Shown here one piece after another: positions 15,229 to 23,238 of a stretch of 32,831 bases of DNA. This DNA comes from Nesterenkonia massiliensis. GTDB lineage: Bacteria > Actinomycetota > Actinomycetes > Actinomycetales > Micrococcaceae. The translations under genes and the position numbers were made by a program. Location: positions 240,048-272,878 of the forward strand of contig NZ_HG005168.1 in assembly GCF_000455245.1 (NCBI RefSeq), in the 5' to 3' direction. Under the pieces are notes generated by a model. That model had not been told where the DNA came from and made no database searches. It worked only from the letters and a program-made list of their open reading frames with translations. The first letter of the stretch is position 1; every line of letters starts with the position of its first letter.

Positions 15229-15300
15229 CGTTTTACTCGTGGCTGTTTACTTTGCCGGCCTGGATTCGTGCGAGTAATGCAAACAGCCACGAGTAAAACG
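15229..15300. repeat. 72-bp palindromic element, copy A (perfect 20-bp arms)
   Basis: 15229-15248 (CGTTTTACTCGTGGCTGTTT) is the exact reverse complement of 15281-15300, with a 32-nt centre. A second element of exactly the same length, about 81% identical by eye (58 of 72), lies in the same orientation at 16462-16533, on the other side of the nuclease-like gene. It is a REP-like or MITE-like repeat. It could also terminate transcription of the gene at 15331, which ends 31 bp away. Confidence 0.85.
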
Positions 15301-15330
15301 AGAGACGGCGGGACGGCGCCGGCAGGCCCG

Positions 15331-16386
15331 TCACTTAAGAGACAGCCCGGCCCGGAGCAGGCGGCGTCGCAGGCGCTCCGGTTCCCGCAACTCCGCTTTG
15401 CCCCATCGCACCACCCTCCAGCCCAGTTCCTCTATTGCCTCACGCCGGAGTTTTTCCTGGAAATGCACCTCTTCGGCGCTGCGGCCCAGACGCAGGGCCT
15501 CGTCGGCATATTTGACACGCCCGTCCACCTCACCCGCGATGCGCGCCCCAGGCCAGCACATGTCCAGACGGAACGTGCCCAGATGGGTCAGCACTTCGGT
15601 CTGCAGATCAGGAGCAGGAAAGCCGAGACTGTGAAGCACAGCCCGAGACTCAGACTCCAACACGGACTCCGAACGAGCATCGGCGAAGTCCCAGACCCGA
15701 TCCCAAAACGCACTGCGCCGGGCTGACCGCAAGTACGCCCGCCAAGGCTGAATGTTCACCTTCCCCTGCCGTTTCACCGCATCAAGTACCACCACCGCAT
15801 CAGGGAACGGCATACGACTCACCGTGTCCACCAGCACAAGCTCCATCGGCTCGACGCGGTAGATTTCCGGTCCTTCCACGCTACTAAGTGCGCTGGCGGG
15901 GAGTGCCATCCAGGGTGGTTCGGTGCTGCCGTCGGCTATTTCGGCTCGCATCTGGGGGCGAGTCTTGCCCGAGGGCAGCGCAGCTTCCACCAGTTTTGTG
16001 GGGATATTCGGCCAGGTGTCAGTCAGAGCTGGGACCCGCCGCGTACCGTCTGTCCACGGGCCGGAAGACCGGACCAGCACCGCCGGCGGAAGATTCAGCA
16101 GCGGTAGCCCGTGCAGCATCAGGGCTGTCTCGTGGCAGAAGACCGGTGGACTTGGCGCCAGTGCAGTTGCGGCGGTGGCCATACGGTACCGGGTCCAGGG
16201 CGGAGCCTCCTGCCATCGCCTCCTGCTGATGTAGACACCGCGCCGTAGCCGAAGAGCCCGTCCCGATTGAGCGTAGTCGCTGAGTTGCCGACTGGTATGG
16301 ACGCCGTCGTCGCGCAGCGTTGCGAGGATGAGGCGCGCCGGGCCATCGTTAGCCTGTGCCGGCGGCCGGTTCTGGAGTGAACTCAT
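15331..16386 (-). CDS. AbiEi-like N-terminal domain fused to DUF559 (PD-(D/E)XK, Vsr-like) nuclease domain
   Basis: 351 residues. Residues 17-110 resemble the AbiEi-type winged-helix region (SRQLSDYAQSGRALRLRRGVY, then CHETALMLHGLPLL). Residues 238-350 match the DUF559 endonuclease-like fold: acidic helix ESESRAVLHSLGF (Glu246), FRLDMCWPG (Asp275), IAGEVDGRVKY (Glu286, Asp288), then KLRREAIEELGWRVVRW. So a DNA-binding domain joined to a probable nuclease. Such proteins are widespread in actinobacteria and are often annotated as antitoxin-like, yet no AbiEii toxin gene is adjacent. The gene is alone, bracketed by two copies of a 72-bp palindromic element. Its biological role is unknown. Confidence 0.8.
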   Translation of the reverse strand: MSSLQNRPPAQANDGPARLILATLRDDGVHTSRQLSDYAQSGRALRLRRGVYISRRRWQEAPPWTRYRMATAATALAPSPPVFCHETALMLHGLPLLNLPPAVLVRSSGPWTDGTRRVPALTDTWPNIPTKLVEAALPSGKTRPQMRAEIADGSTEPPWMALPASALSSVEGPEIYRVEPMELVLVDTVSRMPFPDAVVVLDAVKRQGKVNIQPWRAYLRSARRSAFWDRVWDFADARSESVLESESRAVLHSLGFPAPDLQTEVLTHLGTFRLDMCWPGARIAGEVDGRVKYADEALRLGRSAEEVHFQEKLRREAIEELGWRVVRWGKAELREPERLRRRLLRAGLSLK

Positions 16387-16461
16387 GGTTTGAAGTATTC
16401 GCCGTTTACCGCTTCAGCGGGACGGGATTATCAAATCTGTGGATAACCCGACTCTGGTCAC

Positions 16462-16533
16462 CGTTTTGCTCGTGACTGTTCACTTTGCAGGTCCGGATTC
16501 GCCCGAGTAAAGCGAATAACCCCGAGCAAAACG
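16462..16533. repeat. 72-bp palindromic element, copy B (degenerate)
   Basis: The outer arms CGTTTTGCTCG (16462-16472) and CGAGCAAAACG (16523-16533) are perfect 11-bp complements. Inside them the arms have drifted compared with copy A. The centre (ACTTTGC-GG-C-GGATTCG--CGAGTAA) is shared with copy A, and so is the total length of 72 bp. It lies 75 bp upstream of the nuclease-like gene's start. Confidence 0.8.
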
Positions 16534-23105: not shown

Positions 23106-23183
23106 TTCAGCGGGACTTATCTAAGTCCCCCGATTAAGCTGGCTTGATTCGTCAAGCCATCCTCAAATGGTGCGAGTGAAGCG

Positions 23184-23238
23184 GACGCCGGGGTCAGTGC
23201 TTCCGGGCTAATCCCGGAAGGCATGACCCCGGCGTCCG
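23184..23238 (+). terminator. Large hairpin between pstS and pstC
   Basis: GGACGCCGGGGTCA (23184-23197) pairs perfectly with 23225-23238, and inside it TTCCGGG (23202-23208) pairs with CCCGGAA (23214-23220). There is no T-run, so it is likely a partial terminator or 3'-end stabiliser that leaves more PstS than PstCAB mRNA, as is usual for binding-protein genes. Confidence 0.8.

Follow-up and report, generated by a model that had tools for sequence, protein, structure and literature searches.

A nuclease-like gene family bracketed by its own palindromic elements in Nesterenkonia and other Actinobacteria, a possible counterpart of the REP-RAYT partnership

A 32,831-bp stretch of the Nesterenkonia massiliensis genome (contig NZ_HG005168.1, positions 240,048 to 272,878; referred to as the window) carries a gene for a putative DNA-binding nuclease that is enclosed by two similar palindromes, and most of the related loci that were compared carry such elements as well. 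We consider it fairly probable that these loci are REPtron-like units, in which a DNA-binding nuclease would recognise, maintain and spread its own cognate palindromes under mainly vertical inheritance. To our knowledge, REP sequences and their RAYT genes are the only clear example of a bacterial gene that is coupled to a palindrome population of its own. A second case with an unrelated enzyme, if true, would mean that partnerships of this sort can evolve by convergence, would point to a function for a large and poorly annotated nuclease family, and would provide many natural protein-site pairs for learning recognition rules.

The two elements, i.e., A (15229-15300, 72 bp, the downstream palindrome, located 30 nt past the stop codon) and B (16462-16533, 72 bp, the upstream palindrome), enclose a single minus-strand gene of 351 aa (15331-16386), as the first-pass annotation of this DNA had proposed. 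Both have the same length, are palindromic and have much sequence in common. In element A, 25-nt arms that are 92% complementary surround a 22-nt loop, and their outer 20 bp pair perfectly, as had been read from the sequence at the outset; the 25-nt arms of element B are 80% complementary. The core motif CGAGTAA or CGAGCAA occurs three times per element: the right arm has two copies that start 19 bp apart, and a reversed copy is found at the left foot. More specifically, element A carries CGAGTAA at 15271-15277 and 15290-15296 (plus strand) and the reversed motif at 15233-15239 (minus strand), and element B carries CGAGTAA at 16504-16510, CGAGCAA at 16523-16529 (both plus strand) and the reversed motif at 16466-16472 (minus strand). 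The proposed homology of the two copies was borne out by local alignment of the upstream and downstream flanks of the window gene (score of 49, vs. a top score of 18 when the upstream flank was aligned to the downstream flanks of the 98 other loci described below).

A half-element pattern, allowing up to three mismatches, matched the 2.67-Mb genome four times, every time within A or B, and its reversed control yielded no match in that genome. By this search, the A/B-type element is not dispersed in the window genome. The random spread without a link to the gene that had been named as an outcome speaking against the idea was not seen. Two further hairpins lie elsewhere in the window, i.e., one at 2187-2248, between two minus-strand ORFs, with perfect 19-bp arms (GCTCGGGTGGACAATTTGC) and a 24-nt loop, and one at 23182-23238 with perfect 15-bp arms and a 27-nt loop. 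The former could represent a terminator or an orphan element belonging to some other gene of the same type.

Profile matches divide the protein into an AbiEi-like N-terminal part, a middle part and a PD-(D/E)XK/Vsr-like C-terminal part, the fold class of the latter being presumptive. The AbiEi-like region (residues 24-97; 16096-16317, minus strand), which is the presumed DNA-binding domain, is matched by PADLOC AbiEi profiles (best E-value of 1.1e-7, at residues 24-94), and a PADLOC AbiEi profile matches 73 of the 76 family proteins that were aligned; the match of the window protein to AbiEi_4 fell below Pfam's cutoff (E-value of 0.0032). The presumed nuclease core (residues 240-350; 15337-15669, minus strand) contains the columns that are invariant in the 76-protein alignment (E244, R248, Q262, D275, W278, E286, D288, G289, K292, R314, and R327), and a D...ExDG..K pattern can be read off the alignment in this part. 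These columns presumably form the active site of a nuclease.

The first-pass annotation had described the protein as an AbiEi-like domain fused to a DUF559 domain. Its AbiEi half was upheld by the PADLOC profile, but its DUF559 half was not, as the window protein has no match to Pfam DUF559 (PF04480) at an E-value of 0.01 and only three of the 76 aligned members match it at that value or better. The window protein also matched the MTES_1575 REase profile weakly (E-value of 0.22), a domain described as a Vsr-type REase domain in the part of the source available to us (PMC3710099). Among all 76 members, neither an IS200/IS605-type tyrosine (HUH) transposase nor any other transposase family was matched in Pfam and NCBIfam, and a profile search of solved structures at an E-value of 1 returned no relative.

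The window genome contains four further full family genes and one fragment, its paralogs being 36-39% identical to the window protein. The fragment is a short family-gene remnant (L009, G000:C4:114274-114510), and a distant relative (G000:C2:411571-412317) was also noted in this genome. The family is present in 28 of 30 Nesterenkonia genomes and, in a sample of 296 genomes from across the phylum, in 44 genomes and 33 of 199 genera (E-value of 1e-15 or better).

Flanking DNA was compared at 99 loci, drawn from the 80 best among 332 confirmed relatives together with the loci of the window genome and of the genus, so that close relatives were favoured (114 genes, of which 104 were unique and 99 had enough flank). 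An element was found by at least one of three criteria at 83 of these loci. The gene without elements, which the first-pass annotation had held to speak against a link, thus applies to at most 16 of the 99 loci, two of which (L035 and L040) carry motif arrays that the criteria miss. A repeat shared by the upstream and downstream flanks exceeded the 99th percentile of cross-locus pairs at 47 loci. Hairpins with a score of at least 13 were present upstream at 44 and downstream at 38 of the 99 loci, vs. 2 of 258 shifted control stretches in each case; these strong hairpins occupied both sides at 16 loci and at least one side at 66. At many of the loci listed, the second copy lies at or just past the stop codon.

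The suggested association of these nucleases with palindromes recurred at most loci of a separate phylum sample (29 loci, one per genome and without overlap with the first 99): a strong hairpin was present at 22 of them and a paired repeat at 20. At three of the 29 (L261, L264, and L273), the gene has an in-frame stop, and its longest open piece served to define the flanks. Three additional genes (L274-L276) were each accompanied by their own paired elements. Bacteria commonly have REP-like and terminator hairpins, which is an argument for regarding the window palindromes as common genomic repeats or terminators that lie beside the gene by chance. This explanation was rejected and is barely credible, given that the element exists in only two copies in the whole genome, both at the gene, and that the control stretches contained such hairpins in only 2 of 258 cases.

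The sequence of the elements depends on the type of gene that they accompany. By eye, the palindromes of the four other full family genes in the window genome are unlike A and B and unlike each other; they lie on both sides of L003 and L005 and were seen only upstream of L004 and L006, in part owing to stretches of N that adjoin L006 (near 2770-2795) and L004 (beyond the gene) and leave the elements there only partly visible. Among pairs of loci, similar elements were found in 33 of 44 with at least 60% protein identity, in 1 of 44 with 50-60% identity, and in 1 of 2057 with less than 50% identity. All protein pairs of at least 60% identity are syntenic, and element and protein similarity are both inherited, so common descent cannot be separated from coevolution. 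In one observation across different species (L230, 1499-1563 and 2768-2833, compared with L105), the element of G011 has a counterpart, 75% alike over 63 bp, near a different family gene in G029. That gene has the pair of elements, and the two proteins are only 37% identical.

The elements are about 60-75 bp long and in part of the family share an internal geometry. Since a plain k-mer count was too weak in GC-rich DNA (with loci and controls overlapping), a lag spectrum was used instead. An exact 8-mer recurred at a lag of 19 bp upstream at 29 and downstream at 19 of the 99 loci (controls of 1/258 and 0/254), the runner-up lag within the range of 10-40 bp reaching 6 and 5 loci, respectively. 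At other lags, the controls reached up to 18/258 and 9/254, foremost at multiples of three, as in coding DNA. In the phylum sample, the 19-bp lag was seen at only 4 of 29 loci. A frequent layout consists of motif, spacer, motif, loop, reversed motif, spacer and reversed motif; L061 instead has a tandem array on each side, in which GGCCACCTT copies of uniform direction follow each other every 20 bp or so. All motif copies of an element can change jointly between relatives, as in L040, which has GGTGAA where GGTGCA is found elsewhere.

Mismatches in the hairpins, read on the gene strand, comprised 28 G-T and 39 A-C cases. A hairpin acting at the RNA level is not favoured by this lack of a G-T excess, which together with the tandem arrays suggests that the elements are double-stranded DNA sites rather than RNA structures. 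In the dispersed elements of the first of two lineages described below, the arms pair in 88% of alignment cells (sliding them lowers this to 50% or less), and changes on both sides are seen in 46 cells, compared to a mean of 24 after shuffling; none of 500 shuffles, which ignore relatedness, reached 46. From this pairing and the excess of two-sided changes, the palindromy itself seems to be maintained.

A second sequence feature is shared by much of the family. In the window, a TTATCCACA box (16438-16446, minus strand) has its 5′ end 60 nt ahead of the start codon. The underlying motif, TTNTCCACA, which we take to resemble a DnaA box, occurs upstream on the gene strand at 54 of the 99 loci, on the opposite strand at 3, and in none of 267 control windows. 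Relative to the assumed start codon, 32 of its 56 occurrences begin 51-60 bp ahead and 8 begin 61-70 bp ahead; the window copy falls in the former class. In the phylum sample, only 3 of 29 loci have this motif, which makes it mainly a trait of closer relatives.

Copies of the elements were also found away from family genes. A flank query from one orthologous locus returned element-only sites in several genomes, and a covariance model (R1) was made from 30 of 31 copies extracted from G004, G012, G018, G022, G023, and G024 (L206, with its duplicated arm, was left out), several of which represent one site found in more than one species. The counts obtained with this model and with model R2 below are lower bounds, at most 150 candidates having been scored per genome, and the number of sites is about half that of the matches, as both strands of a palindrome are usually hit. 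Genomes that have the cognate gene gave at least 26 (G012), 30 (G018), 30 (G019), 26 (G022), 32 (G023), and 24 (G024) matches, vs. at least 14 (G004, with a scar), 11 (G009), and 8 (G026, like G009 with an empty site) in those without a gene at the locus, and none in the other 21 of the 30 Nesterenkonia genomes. The cognate gene of G023 has an in-frame stop, yet this genome gave the top count. The least biased comparison is that of G019 (at least 30) with G009 and G026 (at least 11 and 8), none of which contributed copies to the model. The R1 element flanks each of the six cognate genes on both sides and was not found at any of the six further family genes present in G004, G009, and G026 (L097, L098, L115, L274, L275, and L276).

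For a group of Arthrobacter genomes, model R2 was built from the gene-side elements of the same seven genomes that it then matched. It found a flanking copy in all seven of these cognate-type genomes (on one side only in G036) and at least 1-3 further copies in five of them. Of nine comparison genomes, which were picked by another gene type and not by absence of the cognate gene, seven had no match and the other two a single weak hit each (E-values of 9e-4 and 8e-3). The abundance of dispersed elements therefore follows the cognate gene in two lineages, through few independent events; no dispersal was seen in the window genome or, for its own element, in G011. Together with the confinement of element likeness to close relatives of the gene, the gene-dependent abundance in these lineages upholds the link between nuclease and flanking palindromes that had been suggested from the window.

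No family gene was found near dispersed copies within 20 plus 10 fetched surrounding stretches. According to a crude codon-position gene finder, and with some copies representing one site in several species, 18 of 40 dispersed copies lie between convergent genes, 18 between tandem genes and 2 between divergent genes, while a single copy falls inside an ORF and another at an edge. At four Nesterenkonia sites (L208, L199, L204, and L211), pairs of dispersed elements enclose an ordinary gene, which looks reductase-like by eye.

These placements bear on the possibility that the elements are operators, i.e., that an AbiEi-type regulator binds inverted repeats in its own promoter and that the dispersed copies make up its regulon. 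AbiEi proteins are reported to autoregulate via inverted repeats in the part of the source available to us (PMC7319586). The upstream element precedes the promoter region, and the AbiEi profile matches noted above extend to nearly all aligned proteins. Operators would, however, be expected before genes more often than the divergent placement of 2 in 40 copies indicates, and they leave unexplained why a second copy sits at or after the stop codon at many of the loci listed. The presumed nuclease columns are moreover invariant, and the window elements enclose no second gene. On balance, we regard operators as an unlikely explanation.

Whether the unit is gained or lost was examined at orthologous loci, as the first-pass annotation had recommended. 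At the L108 locus, the entire unit, which spans about 1.38 kb and sits between two convergent stop codons, is missing from G009 and G026. In G004, the outer arms of both elements are all that is left. By eye, no target-site duplication was apparent in this comparison, in which the flanks are about 8-18% diverged. The recommended comparison thus gave empty sites at L108 but none at the ppa locus, where only 1 of the 28 genus genomes with a ppa match has the unit upstream of that gene, the neighbours differ and no empty site can be aligned. At the dispersed pair of L208, G009 and G026 likewise retain outer arms only (by eye), and G012 retains a solo element, the enclosed gene being gone. This element-gene-element arrangement, absent as such from two genomes, is suggestive of cargo, and mobility of that cargo is not claimed. 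Loss of the palindrome centre fits a cut as well as a replication accident and does not by itself prove a role for the nuclease.

Empty sites, the single occurrence upstream of ppa and the compactness of a unit of about 1.3 kb with similar ends would also suit an insertion-sequence-like transposon with palindromic ends, of which the dispersed copies would be MITE-like derivatives. In its compact unit, similar ends and dispersed end-like elements, the family does resemble insertion sequences and MITEs. It differs from them in having no transposase match and no multiplied unit: paralogs within the window genome are too divergent to be recent copies, no units of at least 60% protein identity were found at non-syntenic loci among the 66 loci tested, and the one site examined by eye showed no target-site duplication. 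As close pairs at non-syntenic positions are missing from those 66 loci, neither transposition nor a recent jump of the unit was seen, and a transposon of this kind appears distinctly unlikely. A defence or restriction-like gene, with the flanking palindromes as maintenance or self-recognition sites, would agree with the PADLOC AbiEi profiles and with gain or loss among species; we consider it very improbable, since the gene stands alone between the elements in the window and the dispersed elements would go unexplained.

The two elements of a locus can also change in concert. Fourteen ortholog pairs have paired elements and are all syntenic on both sides. In six of them, both within-locus element similarities exceed both between-ortholog similarities; these six have 60-77% protein identity, belong to the 11 pairs below 80%, and include three that share L054. 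In the three pairs with 81-89% identity, the elements of the orthologs are not less alike than those within a locus.

To account for these observations as a REPtron-like unit, we propose that the AbiEi-like part would bind the recurrent short motif of the element, with two motifs 19 bp apart in each half and the halves face-to-face, and that the PD-(D/E)XK-like part would nick or cut at the element. Repair of the break might then copy, homogenise and occasionally erode elements, the centres of which would sometimes be deleted. As an outcome, the pair at the gene would be kept alike, extra copies would arise at a low rate between other genes in some lineages, and elements would decay once the gene is lost. 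Binding, cutting and the copying route are thus inferred activities of the family protein. The comparison of sequences itself demonstrates that gene and element are associated in a manner specific to the gene type, that some of the family has the 19-bp geometry, that element abundance depends on the gene in two lineages, and that genes have been lost, leaving empty sites and outer-arm scars.

The REPtron-like reading is supported by the association, the 19-bp geometry, the gene-dependent spread, the losses, the concerted change, the invariant columns, and the intergenic placement of dispersed copies. Several observations count against it. Spread is not universal, as the element occurs only at the gene in the window genome and in G011; no transposition was seen among the 66 loci tested; 16 of 99 loci have no element by the three criteria; and the 19-bp lag extends to just 4 of 29 phylum loci. 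In addition, the highest number of matches was found in G023, where the gene has an in-frame stop, at least 8-14 matches persist in genomes without the gene, independent co-occurrence events are few, and the three ortholog pairs of 81% identity or more show no concerted change.

A more far-reaching version is possible, and we put it forward tentatively. The family might be a second, independently evolved class of REPtron across Actinobacteria, in which private arrays would be cut as double-stranded DNA and break repair would homogenise, spread and re-invent the arrays as specificity changes. A genome could then hold several orthogonal pairs (five in the present one), and in closer relatives expression could be tied to replication via the DnaA-like box.

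Compared to known systems, the family shares with AbiE type IV toxin-antitoxin systems an N-terminal AbiEi-like domain and an inverted repeat upstream of the gene. It differs from them in its nuclease-like C-terminal part, in having elements that are also downstream and dispersed, and, in the window, in the absence of an adjacent AbiEii nucleotidyltransferase toxin gene between the elements. With DUF559, Vsr-like and REase_MTES_1575 proteins it has in common the C-terminal D...ExDG..K pattern and weak profile matches, whereas 73 of the 76 aligned members have no DUF559 match at an E-value of 0.01. No report tying DUF559, MTES_1575 or AbiEi nucleases to cognate palindromes was found in the open-access literature. 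On this literature and on the comparative evidence, the unit appears new in kind, as no known family tested contains it, though it would be REP-RAYT-like in its working.

The closest likeness is therefore to REP/REPIN-RAYT systems. In the parts of the sources available to us, RAYT genes are described as always flanked by two inverted REPs with which they coevolve, the number of REPs as dependent on the cognate RAYT gene (PMC2817692), and RAYTs as single-copy and vertically inherited (PMC8049555). As far as these accounts go, the present family has the same traits of two cognate palindromes bracketing a gene, a palindrome that is gene-specific, extra intergenic copies, a repeat abundance that tracks the cognate gene, and mainly vertical inheritance. 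It differs in its protein, which has AbiEi and weak DUF559/REase matches instead of a match to IS200/IS605 transposases, and in its elements, which are longer, are partly built of a motif repeated at 19 bp, and have the GT(A/G)G head at the palindrome foot in only 2 of 82 hairpins. Copy numbers are about 2-16 (halved model matches, and lower bounds) vs. tens to hundreds, and flanking is not universal (paired at 47 of 99 loci), in contrast to what the same account says of RAYTs (PMC2817692). With two defining molecular features lacking, namely a match to the tyrosine transposase and (in all but 2 of 82 hairpins) the GT(A/G)G head, the family is, as judged from its sequences, not a RAYT, but it appears to work like one.
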